33,650 bases of DNA from Candidatus Cryptobacteroides faecihippi (GTDB lineage Bacteria > Bacteroidota > Bacteroidia > Bacteroidales > UBA932): contig JAGHSC010000207.1 of NCBI GenBank assembly GCA_018066065.1, forward strand, positions 1 through 33,650, written 5' to 3'. Every line of letters starts with the position of its first letter. Position 1 is the stretch's first letter. Made by a program: the position numbers and the translations under genes. Under the pieces are notes generated by a model. That model searched no databases. It was not told where the DNA came from and saw only the letters and a list, made by a program, of their open reading frames with translations. Positions 6,121 through 27,319 of the stretch are shown piece by piece.

Positions 6121-6461
6121 ACGAGAGCATAGGCGCAAAGCTTACATCCATAGTGGGAGCAATTCTTCCGACCTTCTATTCGGAGGCCGAGACCGAGACG
6201 TATCCATACGCCGCCTATGACCAGATTCTGCAGTACCACCGCACCAAGGACGGAGTGTACAGAATCAGCTCAGATCTGAAGCTCGTGATAGTGTCCAACG
6301 ACTTCGATGAAGCTGACCGCTGCAGGGAGGAAGTTCTCGCAGCCATTGAGTCAGGCATGAAGGACGACCAGTACCAGGCAGAACTTCAGACAGTCAACAA
6401 GGACTGCATGGAGGGTGTCTGGGCAATTGAGATGAACTACAGAATAAACCAATACAAATAA
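6117..6461 (+). CDS. Tail completion/terminator-like protein (DUF3168-like)
   Basis: Size and synteny; MNESIGAKLTSIVGAILPTFYSEAETETYPYAAYDQ. Confidence 0.55.
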   Translation: MNESIGAKLTSIVGAILPTFYSEAETETYPYAAYDQILQYHRTKDGVYRISSDLKLVIVSNDFDEADRCREEVLAAIESGMKDDQYQAELQTVNKDCMEGVWAIEMNYRINQYK

Positions 6462-6465
6462 GCTT

Positions 6466-6882
6466 ATGGTACTCGGATACAACATCAAACTCACCATCGG
6501 GGGCAAGACTCTCGCTGGTAGGACTCAGGACAGCCTCAACATCGCGGCTATCACCAAGGAGTCAATCACCAAGGATGACAACGGCAAGAAGCAGGTCGCT
6601 GTCGTAGGTCATGACGTGACCTTCTCCGTCTCAGCGCTCATGGAGATCCTCTCTGCTACAGAGTCCACCAAAATGGACCGCGACGACATCATCGAGCTCG
6701 CTCTCAAGACAGGCGATGACGCAGTCGTTGCCATCGAGTATGCTGTGACTGGCGGCGATACCTACAAGGGCAACGCAGTCATCACCGGCTACACCGAGGA
6801 CTCATCAGCGTCAGCCGACTCTGACACCACCGTATCTCTCAATCTCCAGGTGACTGGCGACTTCACCAAGAAGAACGCATAA
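6466..6882 (+). CDS. Major tail tube protein
   Basis: GYNIKLTIGGKTLAGRTQDSLNIAA...; synteny upstream of chaperones. Confidence 0.75.
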   Translation: MVLGYNIKLTIGGKTLAGRTQDSLNIAAITKESITKDDNGKKQVAVVGHDVTFSVSALMEILSATESTKMDRDDIIELALKTGDDAVVAIEYAVTGGDTYKGNAVITGYTEDSSASADSDTTVSLNLQVTGDFTKKNA

Positions 6883-7205
6883 TGAGAGATACAATCGTAC
6901 TCAACGGACAGACCTTCCGTGTCGAGGCTAACTGGAACGCCCTCGTGGCGTTCTTCGAGGCTACCGGCAGGGATGACATGGCCGCCCTCTCCAACTTCGG
7001 GCAGCTCAAGCCTTCGGACATGGCAGCTCTCATGGCTGCCTGCATCAACGAGGGCGAGCGTCTTGACGGCCACGACTGCCAGCTCACAGCGAAGCAGGTA
7101 GGCGAGATGTCGGATCTCGGTGTCATCTCTGAGTTCTTAAGCATCTACGTCAAGCAGACCACCAAGGCGGGCTCGAAGTCTACGGATCAGCCAAAAAACG
7201 AGTAA
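6882..7205 (+). CDS. Tail assembly chaperone, zero-frame product
   Basis: Position between tail tube and tape measure; ends just after an A AAA AAC heptamer. Confidence 0.7.
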   Translation: MRDTIVLNGQTFRVEANWNALVAFFEATGRDDMAALSNFGQLKPSDMAALMAACINEGERLDGHDCQLTAKQVGEMSDLGVISEFLSIYVKQTTKAGSKSTDQPKNE

Positions 7206-13389: not shown

Positions 13390-14607
13390 ATGAACACGAA
13401 CATCATCACAAACAATCCAAAGATAGGAGACGCCGTAGTCGGCAATCTCCTCACAGGCAATGTTGAGTATATCAAGGGAGAGTCCTTCTCCCTTGCAGCT
13501 CTCAACTCGTCAGTCTACGAGACCATCGGTGCAGTCTACGGACGTAGAGGTCGTCAGGTCAAGGTGGCCTTCAAGGAGAACGCCAACAAGATCTGGTGCA
13601 CCAAGTACAGCTACCGCCTCTCCGGCTACACCCTCGACGGTACGAACCGCTCCGGCGTGATCTCCATCTGTGAGAGCTCGTCTGCTTCTGCCAACACCGA
13701 CTTCACGGTGAGCTACAACGCCACCACCGTCCAGGGCCTTGTTGACCAGCTCAACGCCTTCTTCCAGGCGACTGCAATCTTCAAGACTCAGAAGTGGGCC
13801 GCAGCCGTTGTTGACGGTGCGATTGACATCACCTTCGACTACACCTTCTGGCAGCAGGCATCCTACAACACCGCCAAGACCGGCTTCGCCTTCTCGGCTA
13901 ACCTCATGCCGGATGTGACTGCACTTGCAAACATCCGCCGCAAGAACGGATACACCGGAGGCGAAGGTGTCATCTCGTCCTTCCCTCGTGCGCTCGCGTA
14001 CTTCAGGGCTGACAACTCGTCAACCACCTACAACCCGAACACCGACGTCACCAACATCAAGAGGAACTATCCGATCTGTCTCCCTGGATACCTCGGTACA
14101 AGCCAGTATCAGAGCGACCACTGCGCGAAGCTCCGCGAGGTCTTCGGAGAGGGTGAGGAAGGCTGGCTCAAGTTCATGGCGTCCTGCATGCCGGTGAAGC
14201 CTTGCGACAACGGCAACATGGGAACTCGTGACGGACTCGAGAGGACCAAGGTGCTCGCATCCAAGCTCACAGCGGACGGTGCAAAGATGTGTCCGGCTGC
14301 TGACTACTGCTACAGCAAGGGCACAGTGACCGTCCCTCAGGGCAACTGGTACCTGCCAACCGTTGAGGACATCAGCGACCTGCTCGACACCATCCAGTAC
14401 GGCACGAACGGAAGCAGGACAGCCGACCCTGTGAACGCTACCCTCTACAAGATGGGCGGCAGTGCAATCAGCAATGGTTCGCACGTCTGGACCTGTTGTC
14501 GTAGCAGCGCCAGCGTCGCCTGGTACGCTAGCGGCTACTACGGCTTCTTCGGCTACGGCATGTTCAACAGCGTCCTCGCGGTGCCCGTTGCGCTCTTAAC
14601 TATTTGA
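13390..14607 (+). CDS. DGR target protein 1 (putative receptor-binding, C-type-lectin-like C-terminus)
   Basis: C-terminal 118-nt VR matching TR except at TR adenines; NWYLPTVEDISDLLDTI... preceding the VR; follows fiber genes. Confidence 0.88.
   Translation: MNTNIITNNPKIGDAVVGNLLTGNVEYIKGESFSLAALNSSVYETIGAVYGRRGRQVKVAFKENANKIWCTKYSYRLSGYTLDGTNRSGVISICESSSASANTDFTVSYNATTVQGLVDQLNAFFQATAIFKTQKWAAAVVDGAIDITFDYTFWQQASYNTAKTGFAFSANLMPDVTALANIRRKNGYTGGEGVISSFPRALAYFRADNSSTTYNPNTDVTNIKRNYPICLPGYLGTSQYQSDHCAKLREVFGEGEEGWLKFMASCMPVKPCDNGNMGTRDGLERTKVLASKLTADGAKMCPAADYCYSKGTVTVPQGNWYLPTVEDISDLLDTIQYGTNGSRTADPVNATLYKMGGSAISNGSHVWTCCRSSASVAWYASGYYGFFGYGMFNSVLAVPVALLTI
14475..14592 (+). repeat. DGR variable repeat VR1
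   Basis: 118 nt aligned to TR without gaps; 18 differences, all at TR adenines (10 A>G, 7 A>T, 1 A>C). Confidence 0.95.
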
Positions 14608-14618
14608 AATTAAACCTT

Positions 14619-14642
14619 GGGCACGGCCTCCGTGCCGTGCCC
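14619..14642 (+). terminator. Hairpin downstream of VR1 (GGGCACGG/CCGTGCCC) with T-rich 3' flank; terminator or DGR cis element
   Basis: Perfect 8-bp inverted repeat, 8-nt loop, followed by CTTGACTTTTT. Confidence 0.6.
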
Positions 14643-14658: not shown

Positions 14659-15090
14659 ATGCAACTATCTGAGAGTTCCATCTACATCGGTCTGAAAAGA
14701 CTCAGGCGCATCCTCTACCAGGCACAGTTCCTCATGGGCAAAGCTGACCGTATTGTCTACGGCACACCGCTCATGCAGGAGTGCGCCAATGTCCTCCGCT
14801 ACTATATCCTCGCCTTCGACACGAAGAGCAGGAAGACGGAGTACATGGACGAGGCGATGGGCTGGTATGCCGTCCTTCGTGAGGACATCGAGTTCTGCAC
14901 CGAGCAGAACATGATCCACTACGCGAAGCGCAAACCGAAGACGTCAGATCCAACTCCTGACGAGTACATCAACAGCCAGATGATTGAACTCTTCGAGATT
15001 GTCGCAAGGATAGACGCGGATATGTGCAGGTATCGGGCGAGTCTCATAAAGGGCAAGACCGTAGTCGATTTTGAGGCTACGGCAGACTGA
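14659..15090 (+). CDS. avd: DGR accessory variability determinant (Avd-like, 143 aa); start revised from 14617
   Basis: Small helical protein (SSIYIGLKRLRRILYQAQFLMGKADRIVYGTPLMQECANVLRYYILAF...) directly between target and TR/RT. Confidence 0.7.
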   Translation: MQLSESSIYIGLKRLRRILYQAQFLMGKADRIVYGTPLMQECANVLRYYILAFDTKSRKTEYMDEAMGWYAVLREDIEFCTEQNMIHYAKRKPKTSDPTPDEYINSQMIELFEIVARIDADMCRYRASLIKGKTVVDFEATAD

Positions 15091-15155: not shown

Positions 15156-15273
15156 TGGTTCGAACATCTGGACCTGTTGTCGTAACAGCGCCAACAACGC
15201 CTGGAACGCTAACGGCAACAACGGCTTCTTCAACAACAACATGTACAACAGCAACCTCGCGGTGCCCGTTGCG
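15156..15273 (+). repeat. DGR template repeat (TR)
   Basis: Shared 118-nt repeat located between avd and RT; 32 adenines; 13 AAC codons in the VR reading frame. Confidence 0.95.
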
Positions 15274-15302
15274 AACTATTCACAAATCAGAAATACAGAG
15301 CA

Positions 15303-16484
15303 GTGCTACTACTTCAGGACATAATTGACGCATACCGTCTCGCACGACACAACAAGAGACGGAGCCCCGACCAGGTGGAGTTCGAGCTTCACTGGCAGAG
15401 GAACTGTGTCCAATTATATCATGACATCGTAGAGCGCCAGCTCCGCCCGACTGCCTACACATTCATCGCACCTCACCCACGACCTCGAGAGGTCTTCGCC
15501 TCAGACATGGCGACCCGAGTGCTCCATCACTACCTTGACATCAGACTGCGTCCCTTACTCGAGAAGCGCATGAGCGACCACACGTTCAACAACCGCGTCG
15601 GCATGGGACAATCAGCCTGCCAGGAGGCCGTGATCAATGACATCTATGAGATGAGCAACGGCTTCACCTCGGATGCCTGGATCATCAAGGTCGACATGTC
15701 GGGATGCTTTCCTAACATAAGGCAAGACACCGCCTATCAGCAATTGCTCGAGGTCATCATGGAGGACTACGAAGGCCACGACAAGGACGAGCTGATATAC
15801 ATGCTTCAGGTGTGTATCTTCAGCTATCCGACGCACCACTGTACACGAAAGTCCTCCCTCGACAAATGGAAGGACATCCCGGACTCAAAGAGCCTGTTCA
15901 AGAAGCCGGACGGTATAGGCGCAGCCATCGGTCACCTCATCTGGCAGAACGCCGTCAACTATTACTTCCACGAGATTGACGAGTGGATGCTCTCCTTCCC
16001 GGAGCTTCGCTTCGAGAGGTTTGTTGACGACATCTATATAATCACCAGAAGCAAGACCGCTCTGCTGCTCATCCCTGAACTCAGACAGAGACTTGCTGAC
16101 CTTGGAGCGACTCTCCATCCGAACAAGTTCTACTGCCAGCACTACACCAAGGGCGTGGAGTGCCTCGGGGCTCACATCAAGATGGACCGGATCTACCCGA
16201 ACAACAGGATTGTGGACCGTGCCGTCATGAGGGCCAAGACCTTCAACGGCTGCGTCCGTCCCGAGAAGGTGAACGACCTGCTCTCTTCTCTCAACTCCTA
16301 CTTCGGGATATTCAAGCACGGGAACGGATTCAACCAGGCCATGAAGGTGGTCCGCGCTCTGGATCCGGCGTGGTTTAAGTACGTACACTTCAACGCCCGC
16401 CGTGTCTGCCTTGAGGCGAACGACGGCTACAAGTACCGACAGCTTCTGGCCAAAAGGTATCATCTAACACCAACAACAGCATGA
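15303..16484 (+). CDS. DGR reverse transcriptase (GTG start)
   Basis: RT motifs: DMATRVLHHYLDIRLRPLLE, KVDMSGCFPNI, GIGAAIGHLIWQNAVNYYF, FERFVDDIYII catalytic box, LHPNKFYCQHYTKGVECLGAHI; 30 nt downstream of TR. Confidence 0.95.
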   Translation: MLLLQDIIDAYRLARHNKRRSPDQVEFELHWQRNCVQLYHDIVERQLRPTAYTFIAPHPRPREVFASDMATRVLHHYLDIRLRPLLEKRMSDHTFNNRVGMGQSACQEAVINDIYEMSNGFTSDAWIIKVDMSGCFPNIRQDTAYQQLLEVIMEDYEGHDKDELIYMLQVCIFSYPTHHCTRKSSLDKWKDIPDSKSLFKKPDGIGAAIGHLIWQNAVNYYFHEIDEWMLSFPELRFERFVDDIYIITRSKTALLLIPELRQRLADLGATLHPNKFYCQHYTKGVECLGAHIKMDRIYPNNRIVDRAVMRAKTFNGCVRPEKVNDLLSSLNSYFGIFKHGNGFNQAMKVVRALDPAWFKYVHFNARRVCLEANDGYKYRQLLAKRYHLTPTTA

Positions 16485-18270: not shown

Positions 18271-18310
18271 GTGGGTCTGATTGGGTCTGTGAGGGTCTCA
18301 TTGGGTCAGT
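18271..18310. repeat. Four GGGTC direct repeats with exact 10-bp period
   Basis: GGGTC at 18273, 18283, 18293, 18303. Confidence 0.75.
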
Positions 18311-19592
18311 CTTTGGTGTCACGGTTCAGTGCATCGAAGCCAGCCATCGCCTTCTTCCTCTGCGAGTCTGTCACATCTATGTAGGGGCGCATCGCCCTGT
18401 AGTCATTATGTCCCGTCCACTGCATCACAACGGTGGGCGGGATTCCCATTTTCAATGCGTTGCACACGAAGGTGCGCCTACCCGCGTGCGTACCCATGAG
18501 CCCCCACTTCTCGCAGGTCACCTCGGAGCGCTCTGAGCCGTGATATTCCACCACCGTCATCTTGGTGTTGAGGCCGCAGTCCTTGGAGATCCTCTTCAGG
18601 TACCGGTTCATCACCTGGTTCGGTATCTGAGGAAGGCAGTGGCCGTCACCGTGGTCGCGGTCTATGTGACGCTCCAGGATCTCTCGGCTCCACTTGTTGA
18701 GATCTATCGTCAGGGCGCGTGCGGTCTTCTGCGTCACGAGCCTGAAGGAGTCCTCGCCCACATCGGTCCAGCGGAGATTCTGGGCGTCGGAGTATCGCAG
18801 AGAGGTGAAGCAGCAGAACAGGAACACATCGCGCACATCGTTGAGGTAGGTGTGGCCCTCTGGAGCTTCGTAGCTCCAGAACTTCATGAGCTCGTCCCAG
18901 TCGAGGAAGATGACCGGCTTGGCCGGACTCTTGAGCTTCGGACGGAAGGCGTCGTAGTCGTTGGTAGGCATGAGGCCCTTGCGGTCCGCCCAGGCGCAGA
19001 ACCAGCGCACATATCCGAGCTGGCGCTGGATGGTCGTGTCGTTGTGTCCTTCGGATGTTCGGAGGAACTCCACATACTTGGCGAAGTTGTACGAGGTGAA
19101 CCCATCGAAGGTCTGAAACGGCGCGAAGTCTCCCATGTGGCGCTTGACCGTCTTCATCTTCCTGATGGTCGCCTCACTCCATGCACGACGGACTGACTCC
19201 TCAGTCATGAACTGCCTGAAGGCCTCCCCCGTGGTATGGATGCCTGGAGCGTCAAGGCCGAGACGGACACGGAGTTCTGAGCGCACCTCGGAGACGGACG
19301 GCCACTTGTCAATGACTGCAAAGTCGGAGAAGACTGCCGCCGCCGTGTCGCGGTATCTGTTGATCTCGTTGTTGATAACCTGAGCCGGTATCTTCATAGG
19401 CCCATGAGTGGAGCGCAGCTTGCACATCTGTGTCGAGGTGTCCCACTTCTCCGGATCCACGAGGAAGCCGAGGTTGATGCTCACGATGGAGCGCGAGCCG
19501 TTCCACTTCGCACGACATACCAGGTGAGCGTGAAGGTCGTCCTCTTTCCTCTTGTGGGGGAAGAAGAACAGAGTGTACTTGAGCTGTATCAT
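18306..19592 (-). CDS. int: Tyrosine recombinase / phage integrase
   Basis: LFCCFTSLRYSDAQNLRW..., GTHAGRRTFVCNALKMGIPPTVVMQWTGHNDYRAMRPYIDV: R, HxxR, H/W, Y catalytic pattern. Confidence 0.95.
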   Translation of the reverse strand: MIQLKYTLFFFPHKRKEDDLHAHLVCRAKWNGSRSIVSINLGFLVDPEKWDTSTQMCKLRSTHGPMKIPAQVINNEINRYRDTAAAVFSDFAVIDKWPSVSEVRSELRVRLGLDAPGIHTTGEAFRQFMTEESVRRAWSEATIRKMKTVKRHMGDFAPFQTFDGFTSYNFAKYVEFLRTSEGHNDTTIQRQLGYVRWFCAWADRKGLMPTNDYDAFRPKLKSPAKPVIFLDWDELMKFWSYEAPEGHTYLNDVRDVFLFCCFTSLRYSDAQNLRWTDVGEDSFRLVTQKTARALTIDLNKWSREILERHIDRDHGDGHCLPQIPNQVMNRYLKRISKDCGLNTKMTVVEYHGSERSEVTCEKWGLMGTHAGRRTFVCNALKMGIPPTVVMQWTGHNDYRAMRPYIDVTDSQRKKAMAGFDALNRDTKD

Positions 19593-19981
19593 GACTGAAG
19601 CTTCTCGATGATGCCGAGAAGACGGTCTATCTGGGCCTGCTGCTTCTCGATGATTCGCTGGAGGGCAGCTGTGTCGGTTCCGCCCACCGTCTGGTTGTGC
19701 CCGTTGTTCACCACATTGTGATTGCCCTGTACATTGGTGGAGGACACCAGCATCTGGGTGTGTTCAGCATCCATCAGGAATAAAGGATCAATTTCTGGAA
19801 AGTATTCACTGACTGTGTACGCAAGGTCGCGAGTTACACGGCGTCTGCCGCACATATACTCCGACAACTGGCTGCGACTTTTACCCATCGTCTTCCCAAA
19901 TTCCGACTGATTACGGATTTTTCCTTGAGAGATCAAAAAATTTTGTACGTCTCTAAGTCTTTGATTCATAATATCTTTCAT
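19589..19981 (-). CDS. XRE-like HTH transcriptional repressor (start revised from 20056)
   Basis: SQGKIRNQSEFGKTMGKSRSQLSEYMCGRRRVTRDLAYTVSEYFP HTH; C-terminal coiled coil; divergent from early genes. Confidence 0.75.
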   Translation of the reverse strand: MKDIMNQRLRDVQNFLISQGKIRNQSEFGKTMGKSRSQLSEYMCGRRRVTRDLAYTVSEYFPEIDPLFLMDAEHTQMLVSSTNVQGNHNVVNNGHNQTVGGTDTAALQRIIEKQQAQIDRLLGIIEKLQS

Positions 19982-19996
19982 ACGCAAGCAAATAGT

Positions 19997-20008
19997 TTTT
20001 GTACAAAA
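19997..20008. promoter_or_regulatory. 12-bp perfect palindrome TTTTGTACAAAA, candidate operator
   Basis: Palindrome read directly between divergent repressor and early genes; half-site TTTTGTAC also at 19941-19948. Confidence 0.45.
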
Positions 20009-20033
20009 TTGATGGATTTTTCCTCTCGCAGTA

Positions 20034-20065
20034 TTGCATTTGAAGGAAAAATTCACTTATCTTTG
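20034..20065 (+). promoter_or_regulatory. Candidate Bacteroidetes-type early promoter (TTG-N21-TATCTTTG)
   Basis: TTG at 20034, TATCTTTG at 20058-20065, upstream of the early operon. Confidence 0.6.
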
Positions 20066-21051: not shown

Positions 21052-21471
21052 ATGGAACCATTGAAACTGAACATCGAAGTCACCCTGAGTGACGAGAGCA
21101 TCAACAAGCTGGTGACCGCCTTGGGAGCGGCCATCGGTGGCTCGTTCGCCGGTGTCCTCGCGAAGCTCGCAAACGGAGCCCTTGAAGAGGCACCAAAAGC
21201 CGAGGCGGTAGAAGAACCCGCCGCACCGGTTGAGGCCGCTCCTGCGCCACAGGAGAAGCCAGCAGACGACATCCCTGAAGACCTCCCGATTACCGACGAG
21301 GAAATGGCGGAGGCAACACGCGCAGCGGTCACCCGACTGAAGGCCGCAGGCAAGTCCATACTATTCATCCGTACCGAGATCTTCGCCAAGTACGGCTGCA
21401 ACAACAGCGCCGGCTGTCCTCTGAGCAAGAGACCAGCTCTCCTTGAAGAACTCCAGAACATCGAGAAGTAA
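21052..21471 (+). CDS. Hypothetical early protein, 139 aa
   Basis: ORF in operon; Ala/Pro/Glu-rich linker. Confidence 0.65.
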   Translation: MEPLKLNIEVTLSDESINKLVTALGAAIGGSFAGVLAKLANGALEEAPKAEAVEEPAAPVEAAPAPQEKPADDIPEDLPITDEEMAEATRAAVTRLKAAGKSILFIRTEIFAKYGCNNSAGCPLSKRPALLEELQNIEK

Positions 21472-22685
21472 TGCCAAGCCAGCACGCCATACTCGCACCG
21501 TCCGCCTCCAAGAGGTGGATGACCTGCACACCCTCAGCACGTCAGGAGGCCAAGTACCCGTCAAAGGACTCGGTCTTCTCACGTGAGGGTACGATAGCAC
21601 ATGCGCTCGCGGAGTTCACCCTCAACTACTTCCTCGAGGAGAAGGCCGTCTATGTGCCGGAGTTCGAGGTATTTCAGAAGAGGATGAGACAGGAGAACCC
21701 TTCCCTGCTGCTGGACCTCACCGTCCAGTGTACCGATGAGGGCTTCGACTTCTGGGACATCTTCGAGATTGTCTACAACAACTACGTCACCATCGTGTAC
21801 GAAGACTTCCTCAATGTCAAGAAGGAGTTCGAGGATGCAGAGCTGCTCGTTGAGGCAGAGTTGAACCTCAAGTCCTACATCCCGGAAAGCTTCGGCTCAT
21901 CAGATGCCGTTCTGATCTACGGAGAAATCCTCAAGGTTTACGACCTCAAGTTCGGCCAGGGAGTCAAGGTCGAGGCTGAGAACAACACACAGATGCTCTG
22001 CTACGCCCTGGGCGCACTCCTCGGTCCTGCGGAGCTCAACGGCATCGACACCGTCCAGATGACCATCATCCAGCCGAGACTCCAGCACATCAGCTCGTGG
22101 AGCATCAGCGCTGACAAGCTCATCCAGTGGGCGACATACGAACTCAAGCCGGCGGCCCTGAAGGCCTTCAACGGCGAGGGAGAGTATGTGCCGGGCGACC
22201 ACTGCAAGTTCTGCCGTATCGCTCCGAGGTGCCGCGCCTGCGCCCTCCGTGCTACTATCCTCGCAGAGTCCAACAGTGAACCGTCCGAGCTGACCGACGA
22301 AGAGCTCGCAGACCTTCTCTACAAGCTGGAGTCCATCAAGAACTGGACGAGCAAGGTCGAGGAGTACGCGCTGCAGCAGGCAGTCAGCGGTCACGCCATC
22401 CCAGGCTGGAAGGTTGTCGAGGGCAGGAGCATCAGCAAGATCCAGGACCAGCAGTCAGCGATGGCCGACCTGTTCAGCGCCGGCTTCGAGAAGGATCTGG
22501 TCTGCAAGCCTGTCGAACTCAAGGGCATCACGGATCTGAAGAAGATCCTCCGTCCGAAGGGCTTCGAGGAACTCCTCGGCAAGTACGTCGTCAAGCCTCA
22601 GGGCAAGCCGACCCTTGCACCGGTATCAGACAAGAGACCCGAGATGAACAACATCGAGGGAGATTTCAATAACGTCATTTTATAA
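21471..22685 (+). CDS. DUF2800-family protein (Cas4/PD-(D/E)XK nuclease-like)
   Basis: LAPSASKRWMTCTPSARQEA..., DLKFGQGV, C-terminal FCRIAPRCRACA Cys cluster. Confidence 0.85.
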   Translation: MPSQHAILAPSASKRWMTCTPSARQEAKYPSKDSVFSREGTIAHALAEFTLNYFLEEKAVYVPEFEVFQKRMRQENPSLLLDLTVQCTDEGFDFWDIFEIVYNNYVTIVYEDFLNVKKEFEDAELLVEAELNLKSYIPESFGSSDAVLIYGEILKVYDLKFGQGVKVEAENNTQMLCYALGALLGPAELNGIDTVQMTIIQPRLQHISSWSISADKLIQWATYELKPAALKAFNGEGEYVPGDHCKFCRIAPRCRACALRATILAESNSEPSELTDEELADLLYKLESIKNWTSKVEEYALQQAVSGHAIPGWKVVEGRSISKIQDQQSAMADLFSAGFEKDLVCKPVELKGITDLKKILRPKGFEELLGKYVVKPQGKPTLAPVSDKRPEMNNIEGDFNNVIL

Positions 22686-22713
22686 CCTCAAAACGTAAAA
22701 CGTCATGAACACA
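22686..22713 (+). repeat. 28-bp direct repeat, copy 1 (CCTCAAAACGTAAAACGTCATGAACACA)
   Basis: Identical to 23043-23070; contains the ATG of the downstream ORF. Confidence 0.9.
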
Positions 22714-22854: not shown

Positions 22855-23041
22855 ATGGGTAGCCTTGAGCAAACTTCCCGATGTCATGAAGAAGTACAAT
22901 CCGGAGCAATTTGCAGCGCTTTCCAAAGCCGAGATCACCACGATGATTTCTGATTCGGCCCGGATAGTCACCGACCGCGACAACAGGAAATACATCAGCA
23001 TCAAGGACGTCGAAAAACTACAACAACAGTACAATTTTTAA
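22817..23041 (+). CDS. Hypothetical 74-aa protein, possibly the out-of-frame C-terminal part of the preceding ORF
   Basis: WVALSKLPDVMKKYNPEQFAALSKAEITTMISDSARIVTDRDNRKYISIKDVEKL. Confidence 0.55.
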   Translation: MGGAKYHPHAKTKWVALSKLPDVMKKYNPEQFAALSKAEITTMISDSARIVTDRDNRKYISIKDVEKLQQQYNF

Positions 23042-23042
23042 T

Positions 23043-23070
23043 CCTCAAAACGTAAAACGTCATGAACACA
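23043..23070 (+). repeat. 28-bp direct repeat, copy 2
   Basis: Identical to 22686-22713. Confidence 0.9.
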
Positions 23071-23646
23071 CAAGAAACCAAGGTAGTGGTAGGCGAAATC
23101 CGCCTCAGCTATGTCCACGTATTTGAACCCGTGGCAGTCGGCAACAGCGCAGACAAGAAGTACAGCGTGAGCCTCATCATCCCTAAGTCGAACACCAAGC
23201 TCGTGGAGGAGACCAAGGCCGCCATCAAGGCCGCATACACTGACGGCATCACCAGCAAGTGGCAGGGCAAAGAGCCTGCAAAGGGTACATGGAAGAATCC
23301 TCTCCGCGATGGCGACATCGAACGCAGCGAGGACGAGGCATATCAGGGAGCCTACTTCCTGAACGCCACAAGTAAGACCGCTCCAGGCGTGGTGAAGATG
23401 AACCCGACCGGCAATCCGAAGTATGTGGCCATCACTGCCCAGGAGGAGCTCTACAGCGGCTGCTTCGGATACGTGTCCGTGAACTTCTACCCGTTCGTGA
23501 ACACAGGCAACAAGGGAGTGGCCTGCGGACTCAACAATGTCCTCAAGACCCGCGACGGAGAGTTCATGGGTGGCCGTGCCAGCGCTGAGTCCGACTTCAA
23601 CGGGCTCGAGATCAATGCCAACCTCGACGACAACGACATCTTCTAA
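23062..23646 (+). CDS. DUF2815-family protein, putative phage ssDNA-binding protein
   Basis: VVVGEIRLSYVHVFEPVAVGNSADKKYSVSLIIPKSN... Confidence 0.85.
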   Translation: MNTQETKVVVGEIRLSYVHVFEPVAVGNSADKKYSVSLIIPKSNTKLVEETKAAIKAAYTDGITSKWQGKEPAKGTWKNPLRDGDIERSEDEAYQGAYFLNATSKTAPGVVKMNPTGNPKYVAITAQEELYSGCFGYVSVNFYPFVNTGNKGVACGLNNVLKTRDGEFMGGRASAESDFNGLEINANLDDNDIF

Positions 23647-23649
23647 GCC

Positions 23650-24171
23650 ATGGCAGAGATCATCTACAAGAAGGGATGCGACGGGCACAAGCCCGTCACC
23701 CTTTCAGACATCGAAGGCATCAGCCTCGAGCTTCTGAACGGTGAGACCATCGTGGTCTTCCCGAAGTACAAGGACGTGAAGTTCCTCGATAGGGAGAAGA
23801 TCAGCAAATACACCCGCAAGAACTTCTCCGAGTTCGATGCCCTCCATGTCAAGAGCACGGATGCGACCATCCTCACCGACGAACTTCTCGCCCTTGAGAG
23901 CCCAGCCGCAAAGCATGTCAGGGAGCAGGGAGCCTACGACCTCCCGTCCCTTCTCGCAGCTGGCGAGATCATGAAGCAGAGGGATGAGATCGACAAACTC
24001 GCGAGAACCATCGAAGGGGCTGACCTCTTCGACAATTGTGGTTCGAGCATCTGTACCTGTTGTCGTGACAGCGCCGGCTTCGCCTGGTACGCTCACGGCG
24101 GCAGCGGCTTCTTCAACGGCGGCATGTACAGCAGCTTCCTCGCGGTGCCCGTTGCGCTCTTGAAATATTAA
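23650..24171 (+). CDS. DGR target protein 2 (173 aa) in the DNA-metabolism operon
   Basis: C-terminal VR2 matching TR; CLec-like run AYDLPSLLAAGEIMKQRDEIDKLARTIEGADLF before VR; 3 nt after the DUF2815 stop. Confidence 0.88.
   Translation: MAEIIYKKGCDGHKPVTLSDIEGISLELLNGETIVVFPKYKDVKFLDREKISKYTRKNFSEFDALHVKSTDATILTDELLALESPAAKHVREQGAYDLPSLLAAGEIMKQRDEIDKLARTIEGADLFDNCGSSICTCCRDSAGFAWYAHGGSGFFNGGMYSSFLAVPVALLKY
24039..24156 (+). repeat. DGR variable repeat VR2
   Basis: 118 nt aligned to TR without gaps; 19 differences, 18 at TR adenines (12 A>G, 5 A>T, 1 A>C), one G>T at repeat position 16. Confidence 0.95.
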
Positions 24172-24183
24172 ATCTTAATCCTT

Positions 24184-24212
24184 GCCGGAGGCGCAAGACT
24201 CCGGCCCTTTTT
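24184..24212 (+). terminator. Hairpin GCCGGAG-gcgcaaga-CTCCGGC followed by T-run, downstream of VR2
   Basis: 7-bp perfect stem then CCTTTTT. Confidence 0.7.
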
Positions 24213-24307: not shown

Positions 24308-24457
24308 ATGATCACATTTCTCAAAATCGTCGGCGTCATCGCCCTCATCCTTTTCTTCCTGGTTCTCGTCTTCATCGTGGCTGCATGTGTAGCCTTCCTC
24401 CTTGCAGCGCAGGAGAACGATCCGAGATTCTTCAATGATGACGACATAGACTTCTAA
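24308..24457 (+). CDS. Small single-pass membrane protein, 49 aa (not in the ORF track)
   Basis: MITFLKIVGVIALILFFLVLVFIVAACVAFLLAAQENDPRFFNDDDIDF. Confidence 0.6.
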   Translation: MITFLKIVGVIALILFFLVLVFIVAACVAFLLAAQENDPRFFNDDDIDF

Positions 24458-24460
24458 GCC

Positions 24461-25060
24461 ATGCTGACAGTCAAGAACGTCAAGGTGTACGATCTCAAGG
24501 AGTCCGTCATCGCATCAAGAAATGCCCTCAGGGTCGACCTTCCCGACTATTCCGAGGAAGAGTTCATCAGGTCGCTTGAGAGGGCCAAGAAGCTCGCAAA
24601 CGCCCCAGCAGGGAGTGGAGAGCAGACCTTCCTCTCTGGCATCCGTGTCAGCTTCGACATCATCTATCCGAACTACATCAGCCCCGAGCTTCAGAGATAC
24701 CACTGGATTGACATCGTGACCAGCTCGTCAAAGATGCACAAGATCATGAAGATGGACATGGACTACTGCTTTAATAAGTATGTGACCGCAGAGAGCAAGA
24801 TCCAGATGAAAGAGCTGGTGGAGAACTACAACAACGCCCCATGCTATGAGCACTTCATGCTGGTGATCAGCAACTGCCCTCAGGGCATCGAGCTCTTCAT
24901 GAGGGTCAGCACCAACTACCTCCAGCTCAAGACCATCTACAGACAGCGCAGACATCACAAGCTCAAGGAGGACTGGGGCGCGTTCTGCTCCTTCGTGGAG
25001 ACGCTTCCCTTCGCCAATGAGTTCATAATCGGAGAACGCAATGGGCAAGGCAAGCATTAA
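24461..25060 (+). CDS. Hypothetical phage protein, 199 aa
   Basis: ORF in operon; LSGIRVSFDIIYPNYISPELQRYHWIDIVTSSSKMHKI. Confidence 0.7.
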   Translation: MLTVKNVKVYDLKESVIASRNALRVDLPDYSEEEFIRSLERAKKLANAPAGSGEQTFLSGIRVSFDIIYPNYISPELQRYHWIDIVTSSSKMHKIMKMDMDYCFNKYVTAESKIQMKELVENYNNAPCYEHFMLVISNCPQGIELFMRVSTNYLQLKTIYRQRRHHKLKEDWGAFCSFVETLPFANEFIIGERNGQGKH

Positions 25061-25214
25061 GGTGGCGAGCAGCGATGACTACTGCTGCGGCAACTGCCAG
25101 TACATGGAGAACGAGGACGCCTACGGATATGGATGGTGCGCTGTCCATCAGGCTGAGACCTACTGCGGTCTTCAGTGTCCTCACCACATAACTGAAAAAG
25201 ACGACGAAGAATGA
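25041..25214 (+). CDS. Cys-rich small protein, 57 aa (not in the ORF track)
   Basis: MGKASIKVASSDDYCCGNCQYMENEDAYGYGWCAVHQAETYCGLQCPHHITEKDDEE; stop overlaps the polymerase start. Confidence 0.6.
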   Translation: MGKASIKVASSDDYCCGNCQYMENEDAYGYGWCAVHQAETYCGLQCPHHITEKDDEE

Positions 25215-27319
25215 AACACCTGCACATAGATATAGAAACCTACAGCCCCGAGCCGATTGCCGACTGCGGAGCCTACAGATACGCGATGAATCCCGAGTTC
25301 GAGATCCTGCTGGTGGCCTATGCCAAGGATGACGAGCCGACTCAGATCATCGACCTCGCAAGCGGCGAAAAACTCCCCGAGTGGTTCGTTCAAGCTCTCC
25401 TCGACCATCAGGTGACCAAGCATGCACACAACGCAGTGTTCGAGCGTGTCTGCTTCACCATGTGGTTGAGGCGTCACACCTGCATCATAGCAGATGACGA
25501 ATGGCTCAACCCGATGGACTGGGAGTGCAGCTCCGTCAAGGCCGGAAGGTGCGGTCTGCCTCTGAGCTTGAAGGGAGCCGGCGAAGCTCTCCGACTCTCG
25601 GAGCAGAAGATGGACGAGGGCAAGTCTCTCATCCAGCTGTTCTGCACACCTCGCAAGGTCCGCAAAGGATCCGAGAACGAGGGACTCTTCGGAGAACTTC
25701 CCAAGAGGGTGCAGCCGTCCGAGTATCCCGACAAGTGGGAAACCTTCAAGGCATACTGCATCAGGGACGTGGACGTGGAGCGCAGCATAGAGGAGGCGCT
25801 CAGCTGGTACGAGGTCAGCGACTTCGAGAAGGCTCTCTACGCCATCGATCAGCGCATCAACGACTACGGCGTCCGCATAGACCTCGACATGGTGACCGAG
25901 GCGAACCGCATGGACATCCTCACCAAGTCAAGGCTCTCGGCCGAGGCCGTGACCATCACCGGCCTGAGCAACCCGAACTCAGGACCGCAGCTCAAGGCGT
26001 GGCTCTCGGAGAGACTCGGCATCGACATCCCGTCACTCACCAAGACAACCCTTCCCGACATCGTCGGCGAAGCAAGAAGGCAGAGGGACACAGTTGCCCT
26101 CAGAGTCCTGCAGATCCGCGCGGAAATGGGCAAGACGAGCAACGCCAAATACGACGCGATGCTGTCGGTGGTAGGCCCTGACGGAAGGGCACGAGGACTC
26201 ACCCAGTTCTACGGATCACGCACAGGCCGATGGGCCGGACGACTCATCCAGATGCAGAACCTTCCGCAGAATCACATCGGCGCCCTGGACACTGCGAGAC
26301 AGATGCTCAAGGCCGCAGACTATGACAGCCTCGACCTCACCTTTGGCAACGTGCCCGACACCATCAGCCAGCTCATCCGCACATCGTTCATCCCGAGCGA
26401 TGGCAAGATCTACGCGGTCTGCGACTTCTCAGCCATCGAGGCACGAGTGCTCGCATGGATGGCCGGTGAGGAATGGGTGCTTGACACCTTCCGCCAGGGT
26501 GGTGACATCTACTGCGCGACTGCGTCTCAGATGTTCCACAAGCCTGTGGAGAAGCACGGCCAGAACGCACACCTCCGCCAGAGAGGAAAGGTCGCAGTCC
26601 TCGCCCTCGGATACGGTGGCGGAGTGTCAGCCCTCGACGAGATGGGCGGTGCCCGTCTCGGCATGACCGAAGAGGAGGAGGCCGACACCGTGAAGATGTG
26701 GCGCAACGCCAACCCCGGCATCGTGGCCTTCTGGGGCCTCGTGGAGAAAGCAGCGAAGGAGTGCATCGTCTACAAGACCACCCGCAAGGTGGAGACACCC
26801 CACACCAGTGTGACCTTCCGCATGGAGGACAGCACCATGACCATCGAGCTCCCTTCCGGCAGGAAGATCTGCTATCCTGAGGCCGAGCTGCACTTCGACA
26901 GGGAGTGGGCATGCACGGGACAGACAGCAGCCCAGGCGGCAACCGACTCAAGCTTCATCAAGAAGGAGAAGCCAGCTCTGCACCCTGAGCGACACTACAT
27001 GGACAAGGGAGCATCCATCCGCTTCATGGGAACCAACCAGACAACCCGCAAGTGGGAATGGATTGAGACCTGGGGAGGAAAGCTCACGGAGAACATCGTG
27101 CAGGCAGTAGCCCGTGACTGCCTCGCTGAGACAATGGTCAACTGCATGAAGGCAGACTTCCCTGTTGTCTTCCACATCCATGACGAGCTCGTGATGGAGG
27201 TCTCATCGGAGGACAAGCTCGAGGAGATCCAGGACATCTTCGCCATCGTGCCCTCATGGGCAAACATGCTCCCTCTGAGGGGCGCAGGATATACCGGAAA
27301 TTATTACTACAAAGACTAA
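25211..27319 (+). CDS. Family A DNA polymerase with 3'-5' exonuclease-like N-terminus
   Basis: MKHLHIDIETYSP; FYGSRTGRWAGRLIQMQNLPQ; CDFSAIEARVLAWMAGE; HDELVMEV. Confidence 0.95.
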   Translation: MKHLHIDIETYSPEPIADCGAYRYAMNPEFEILLVAYAKDDEPTQIIDLASGEKLPEWFVQALLDHQVTKHAHNAVFERVCFTMWLRRHTCIIADDEWLNPMDWECSSVKAGRCGLPLSLKGAGEALRLSEQKMDEGKSLIQLFCTPRKVRKGSENEGLFGELPKRVQPSEYPDKWETFKAYCIRDVDVERSIEEALSWYEVSDFEKALYAIDQRINDYGVRIDLDMVTEANRMDILTKSRLSAEAVTITGLSNPNSGPQLKAWLSERLGIDIPSLTKTTLPDIVGEARRQRDTVALRVLQIRAEMGKTSNAKYDAMLSVVGPDGRARGLTQFYGSRTGRWAGRLIQMQNLPQNHIGALDTARQMLKAADYDSLDLTFGNVPDTISQLIRTSFIPSDGKIYAVCDFSAIEARVLAWMAGEEWVLDTFRQGGDIYCATASQMFHKPVEKHGQNAHLRQRGKVAVLALGYGGGVSALDEMGGARLGMTEEEEADTVKMWRNANPGIVAFWGLVEKAAKECIVYKTTRKVETPHTSVTFRMEDSTMTIELPSGRKICYPEAELHFDREWACTGQTAAQAATDSSFIKKEKPALHPERHYMDKGASIRFMGTNQTTRKWEWIETWGGKLTENIVQAVARDCLAETMVNCMKADFPVVFHIHDELVMEVSSEDKLEEIQDIFAIVPSWANMLPLRGAGYTGNYYYKD

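Follow-up and report, generated by a model that had tools for sequence, protein, structure and literature searches.

The window analysed here, a stretch of 33,650 nt (contig JAGHSC010000207.1, our C270) from a 2.25-Mb metagenome-assembled genome of Candidatus Cryptobacteroides faecihippi, is a temperate, siphophage-like genome of a Bacteroidales phage in which a DGR serves two targets, one adjoining the tail genes (T1) and one among the replication genes (T2; 23650..24171, + strand, 173 aa, from an ATG). Our overall reading, to which we assign a probability of about 0.5, is that T2 is an early, cytosolic and probably non-virion hypervariable binder that acts most plausibly against host factors. 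T2 would be a free-standing, single-domain lectin-type protein of the SSB-PolA operon, mutated in trans from the template repeat (TR) by the reverse transcriptase (RT), made early and kept in the cytoplasm of the infected cell, outside the virion. Its variable region (VR) would present a surface for binding a partner that varies and lies inside the cell, most plausibly a protein of host defence or host replication, and the phage population would sample new binding surfaces inside the cell via T2, as T1 samples receptors outside.

The phage genome and its two-target DGR

In the left part of the genome, late genes (terminase, portal, tail) are followed by T1, an Avd-like gene, the TR and the RT. 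Beyond the RT lie a lysis-type gene, an integrase (18306-19592) and a repressor-like regulator (19589-20056), the latter two on the minus strand and read from the list of open reading frames, and then a rightward operon with the order DUF2800 exonuclease, DUF2815 SSB, T2, PolA, primase-like gene, VRR-NUC and SNF2-like helicase. Genes with no Pfam or PHROG match were named by resemblance to an annotated Bacuni genome or from sequence. The same putative operon as T2 holds, on the + strand, the DUF2800 PD-(D/E)XK exonuclease (21471..22685; PF10926, E=1.8e-115; phrog_69) and the family A DNA polymerase (DNA_pol_A, 25211..27319; PF00476, E=2.9e-27). The DUF2815 or Enc34-type ssDNA-binding protein (23062..23646, + strand; PF10991 Enc34_ssDNA-bd, E=1.7e-63) stops 3 nt before T2, so that the coordinates given by an earlier sequence-only reading, including the place of T2 upstream of the polymerase, were confirmed. 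That reading had also assigned T2 to an early module and seen no tail signature in it; the neighbouring SSB, exonuclease and PolA genes agree with this by position, and it is from this position, downstream of the divergent repressor, that T2 is presumed to be an early gene. A box of the Bacteroidetes promoter type (TATCTTTG) occurs at 20058, in the gap between the repressor and the early operon, but was left out as evidence because, by estimate, such boxes seem no commoner in the window than chance would give.

Two further features were seen in the operon. Near-identical copies of a 37-nt leader repeat (CCTCAAAACGTAAAACGTCATGAACACA), each with an ATG inside the repeat, lie at 22677-22713, 5' of a short frame behind DUF2800, and at 23034-23070, 5' of DUF2815. 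An unlisted 49-aa ORF (24308-24457) with one strong transmembrane segment (MITFLKIVGVIALILFFLVLVFIVAACVAFLLAAQENDPRFFNDDDIDF) lies between the VR2 hairpin and the gene that starts at 24461.

The DGR cassette is encoded on the + strand. T1 (13390..14607, 405 aa), homologues of which are present in related DGR phages, carries VR1 (14475..14597) at its 3' end, and all 21 mismatches between VR1 and the TR (15156..15278) fall at TR adenines. The Avd-like accessory gene (14659..15090; listed from a TTG at 14617, with an ATG at 14659) was named for its position between VR1 and the TR, its match to phrog_3206 'Avd protein of DGR' reaching only E=0.078, and the RT (15303..16484, 393 aa) matches PF00078 (E=3.6e-12) and phrog_1423 (E=4.8e-44). 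The second recipient, VR2 (24039..24161, core to 24156), forms the C-terminal end of T2 at a distance of 8.9 kb from the TR, with 21 of its 22 mismatches at TR adenines (hypergeometric P about 2e-13); when the last five nucleotides past the IMH-like motif are set aside, the counts are 18/19 for VR2 and 18/18 for VR1. The sole non-adenine change, at 24053, turns the Trp codon of the TR and VR1 (TGG) into Cys (TGT). Besides the TR, VR1 and VR2, no further TR or VR copies were found in the assembly to which the contig belongs.

Eight adenine sites are changed in VR1 only, eight in VR2 only and four in both but differently, so the two regions are independent products of mutation; gene conversion from VR1 to VR2 was ruled out by these patterns. 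A GC-rich, IMH-like motif (GTGCCCGTTGCG) is common to VR1 (14581-14592), the TR (15262-15273) and VR2 (24145..24156), and directly past it both VRs part from the TR in the same way (CTCTT against AACTA). VR1 is followed by a hairpin at 14619..14642 and VR2 by a GC-rich hairpin at 24184..24205, 27 nt past the IMH-like motif; the VR2 hairpin precedes CCTTTTT and is also terminator-like, and none follows the TR (z against mononucleotide shuffles of -5.2 and -3.9 for VR1 and VR2, and 0.8 for the TR). Retrohoming in BPP-1 needs a hairpin downstream of the VR (PMC3240598). With its mismatches at TR adenines and its motif and hairpin arranged as in BPP-1, T2 is by mechanism a DGR target and no chance repeat, and we regard its status as a true target as practically certain.

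Fold and family of T2

No convincing family match for T2 was found in Pfam, PHROGs, NCBIfam or PADLOC, and with T2 alone as the query, 393 genomes of the order, IMG/VR, GTDB contigs and INPHARED yielded no relatives. When 399 genomes of its family were searched permissively, weak matches to the T2 C-terminus appeared beside DUF2815 in a congeneric genome (G629), and from this member the further members G797, G601 and G697 and the IMG/VR loci L092, L093, L094 and L098 were reached, L098 being counted as a T2 homologue without a demonstrated DGR.

The body of the window T2 is very divergent and a plain family HMM did not tell it from shuffled sequences (not significant). The E-value of the window against the family-wide profile carries no weight, since that profile contains the window sequence and the comparison is circular. 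With the register anchored, the N-terminus of T2 (IYKKGCDGHKPVTLSD) resembles that of the family (IYIINPDNNKPVTIED), 22 of 20000 shuffles being as good. The segment before the VR, likened in the sequence-only reading to that of C-type-lectin-like DGR proteins, does align in register at residues 92-124, and 2 of 5000 shuffles scored higher, so that the resemblance holds in register and is weakly supported by sequence. T2 was placed in the family because of the shared slot, the VR, the anchored N-terminal similarity and the pre-VR segment, and homology of its residues 1-90 to the family appears likely.

The predicted C-terminal lectin fold was borne out in a homologue. The AlphaFold model of the window T2 has a pLDDT of 34, and that of the G797 homologue, which covers 157 aa, reaches a mean pLDDT of 83 and a pTM of 0.82, with the Lcl C-terminal domain (PF07603, PDB 8q4e) as the best solved structure (probability 1.00, TM 0.49/0.56). 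Homology to this modelled relative supports a C-type-lectin-type C-terminus for T2. Since the lectin-like model takes up essentially all of the homologue chain, little room would be left for a virion-anchoring domain. Lcl itself is secreted as an adhesin and includes a collagen-like region, in contrast to T2, which has neither a signal nor collagen repeats. As had been noted from the letters, the N-terminus of T2 is not hydrophobic (best 19-aa Kyte-Doolittle window within the first 40 residues, 0.87), but neither is that of the tail-type target T1 (0.61), and the lack of a signal peptide therefore does not tell a cytosolic protein from a virion one.

Placement among replication genes in other phages

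About nine phage groups, the cultured Bacuni F1/F2/F4 and BS-TP1 among them, were found to have lectin-type targets of 143-242 aa located with replication genes. The DUF2815-T2-PolA slot of the window also occurs in G629, where a 151-aa VR-bearing ORF lies between DUF2815 and PolA, and in the IMG/VR loci L092 and L094; in L093, T2 lies beside a replication-type gene. T2 is likewise carried by G797, G601 and G697, and in the first and last of these it lies a long way from T1 and the RT. The order PolA, T2, DNA methyltransferase and VirE primase is shared by Bacuni F1/F2/F4, L130, L134 and L136; in the last two loci a sliding-clamp-like gene lies downstream. The T2-like gene of BS-TP1 lies 50 kb from the RT cassette on the opposite strand, and all 11 of its VR substitutions are at A. 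The crAss-like phage csAssE-Sib has a lectin homologue in its replication half, which was tested as a DGR target against the TR of that phage and gave no match; because of this relative, the data suggest that the lectin protein resides in early modules, where DGRs capture it.

A DUF2815 search in IMG/VR returned no relatives, the neighbouring gene 24461-25060 was found there at 21 loci, none with T2, and among the contigs with related RTs (L028-L032) the DGR cassette is common and the replication genes of the window were matched in none of the three read whole. As an alternative, T2 might assist replication, its VR adjusting contacts with host replication or repair proteins that vary, and not with defence proteins. 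The consistent presence of SSB, PolA, primase and sliding-clamp-like genes nearby speaks for such an accessory role, but other phages with the neighbouring genes were not found to carry T2, and replication proteins, conserved among hosts, would make no demand for hypervariation; we consider it quite unlikely.

Several loci showed other features near T2. A tRNA-like sequence that ARAGORN did not call lies between DUF2815 and T2 in L096 and L092, and a tRNA-Tyr with anticodon ATA, called by ARAGORN, lies in a similar place in L094 (9166-9248), directly behind DUF2815. In G697 (contig C2, 49680-48288, minus strand) the RT open frame has the TR fused to its N-terminus in the same reading frame. 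A second RT-like gene is found about 0.8-1 kb downstream of T2 in L123 (9476-10738) and L133 (7626-8945); the former, gp79 of BS-TP1, has a YSDD motif and is annotated as a tail protein. In L098, the T2 homologue comes after a primase-like gene and directly before a pair resembling the HicA/HicB toxin-antitoxin genes (6422-7050).

A second DGR target outside the structural genes has a precedent. In Quimbyvirus, a second C-type-lectin target lies distal to the structural module and was proposed to be non-structural (Benler et al. 2021, PMC8008677), and T2 is a generalised variant of this case and no new category. Quimbyvirus and BS-TP1 share with the window a distal second target, probably of lectin type in the window, but there it stands on the opposite strand with nuclease, methyltransferase and RNA ligase genes as neighbours, whereas T2 is shorter and its gene, within the SSB-PolA operon, begins 3 nt past the end of the SSB gene. 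Methyltransferase, nuclease or RNA-ligase defence neighbours were not found at T2, the nearest identified genes being those for SSB, the exonuclease and PolA. The Bacuni phages F1/F2/F4 are closer in layout, with DUF2800 and DUF2815 genes, a similar genome order and a two-target DGR that has one VR by the RT and the other close to PolA in the replication module. Their VR in a distant gene has been reported (Hedzet et al. 2021, PMC8143477), and we find this gene at MT635598 22548-23222, flanked by PolA on one side and DNA-methyltransferase/primase genes on the other; the same genome encodes DUF2800 and DUF2815. Its product differs from T2 in its length of 224 aa, an extra N-terminal segment, a recognisable Lcl_C domain and a gene position downstream, not upstream, of PolA. 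With BPP-1 Mtd, T2 shares adenine mutagenesis between TR and VR, the IMH, the downstream hairpin and probably a lectin-type VR fold, but Mtd is a virion receptor-binding protein encoded by the tail genes, a role that falls to T1 here. According to Roux et al. (PMC8144416), most phage targets are tail proteins, and they are typically made of several domains. Relative to the open-access literature searched, what is new is the recurrent placement of a DGR target by replication genes across unrelated Bacteroidales phages, a short lectin-only family that has no library profile, and a contrast in selection between body and VR together with a dissociation from host tropism.

Variation, host tropism and the likely site of action

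Diversification was seen in the relatives, the window T2 being a single allele, and near-identical pairs were compared by nucleotide differences in the body and in the last 41 codons. The body is identical between Bacuni F1 and F2, whose last 41 codons differ at 16 nt (15 nonsynonymous); the differences in body and last 41 codons are 9 and 15 (15) between G629 and L092, 2 and 19 (18) between L093 and L094, and 16 and 24 (20) between L134 and L135. None of the VR changes introduces a stop, and a dN/dS of about 0.13-0.28 among close family members indicates purifying selection on the body. Compared with the TR, the VRs of L093 and L094 have 19/23 and 14/20 of their changes at A, the remainder lying mostly in the flanking ends. 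The T2 gene and its hairpin are nearly identical outside the VR between L093 (6704-7195) and L094 (10001-10480), with unrelated flanks, so the gene and its homing site seem to move as one unit in an apparent cassette exchange.

These patterns weigh on the idea that VR2 is a decayed or passive copy, a store of variants with no protein function. The Trp to Cys change at 24053 and the divergent, poorly modelled body of the window T2 would fit such decay, but the frame is open, the retrohoming signals are intact, VR1 and VR2 have changed independently, and in the relatives the body is under purifying selection while VR changes are non-synonymous and free of stops. We hold it to be highly improbable.

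A test of a different kind is offered by the cultured Bacuni phages, although with one pair in each direction. F1 and F2, which share a host strain, show 16 nucleotide differences in the VR of T2 and a single one in that of T1; F1 and F4, whose hosts differ (PMC8143477), do not differ in T2 and have 18 changes in the VR of T1. Within this small sample, host tropism follows T1 and not T2. Because tropism tracks T1, T2 sits in a replication slot and there seems to be little room for an anchor, a non-virion, intracellular T2 is favoured, and its non-virion status, taken singly, is fairly probable.

The contrary view is that T2 is a virion component, be it a decoration, tail-tip or ejected protein, that is loaded late and binds a surface ligand through its VR. 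The phage DGR targets understood experimentally are all receptor-binding proteins; both Bacuni targets were named fimbrial-tip-like adhesins by their authors (PMC8143477), Lcl-type lectins are adhesins, and T1 likewise has no signal peptide. The T2 gene, which is not in the structural module of the window, lies apart from structural genes in every relative with a readable context, T2 has no N-terminal virion-anchoring domain, and in Bacuni the T2 VR changed with no change of host and the host changed with no change of T2. Early-transcribed genes can encode virion proteins too. On balance we judge a virion role to be unlikely.

The suggestion in the sequence-only reading of a role in the cell or in the lysogen fared unevenly. 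Since the placement recurs in many phages and the homologue is essentially one lectin domain, T2 is best read as acting inside the cell. The lysogen half was weakened, as the gene is downstream of the repressor, apparently in a lytic operon under repression. A protein acting in the lysogen or against competitor phages, as in superinfection exclusion, would fit a phage that encodes an integrase and a repressor-like regulator, and DGR diversity could track competitors; however, T2, downstream of the divergent repressor in a presumed lytic operon, should be silent in a lysogen, and it has no membrane or export signal. Such a role seems very unlikely.

We infer that T2 is expressed early, stays in the cytosol outside the virion and acts against the host. 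Among such roles counter-defence is preferred because it would account for the hypervariation and accords with the view that Benler et al. took of the distal Quimbyvirus target in the light of its neighbouring genes (PMC8008677), yet binding to host defence factors in particular falls somewhat short of an even chance. PADLOC found no convincing defence or counter-defence genes among the tested neighbours of T2, the one hit being a weak ZorA match (E=0.0015) on 21052-21471. In general terms, we put forward only tentatively, with the odds against it, that Bacteroidales phages may possess dedicated intracellular hypermutating lectin-fold effectors, encoded in the replication operon, on which the tail-fibre DGR acts in trans and whose binding to proteins of host defence or replication evolves during infection.

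Phage DGRs are usually taken as devices for changing receptors. Bacuni F1/F2/F4 and BS-TP1 are cultured and carry the gene, and the question is therefore directly testable. If T2 works in the cell, phages would use targeted hypermutation inside the cell too.
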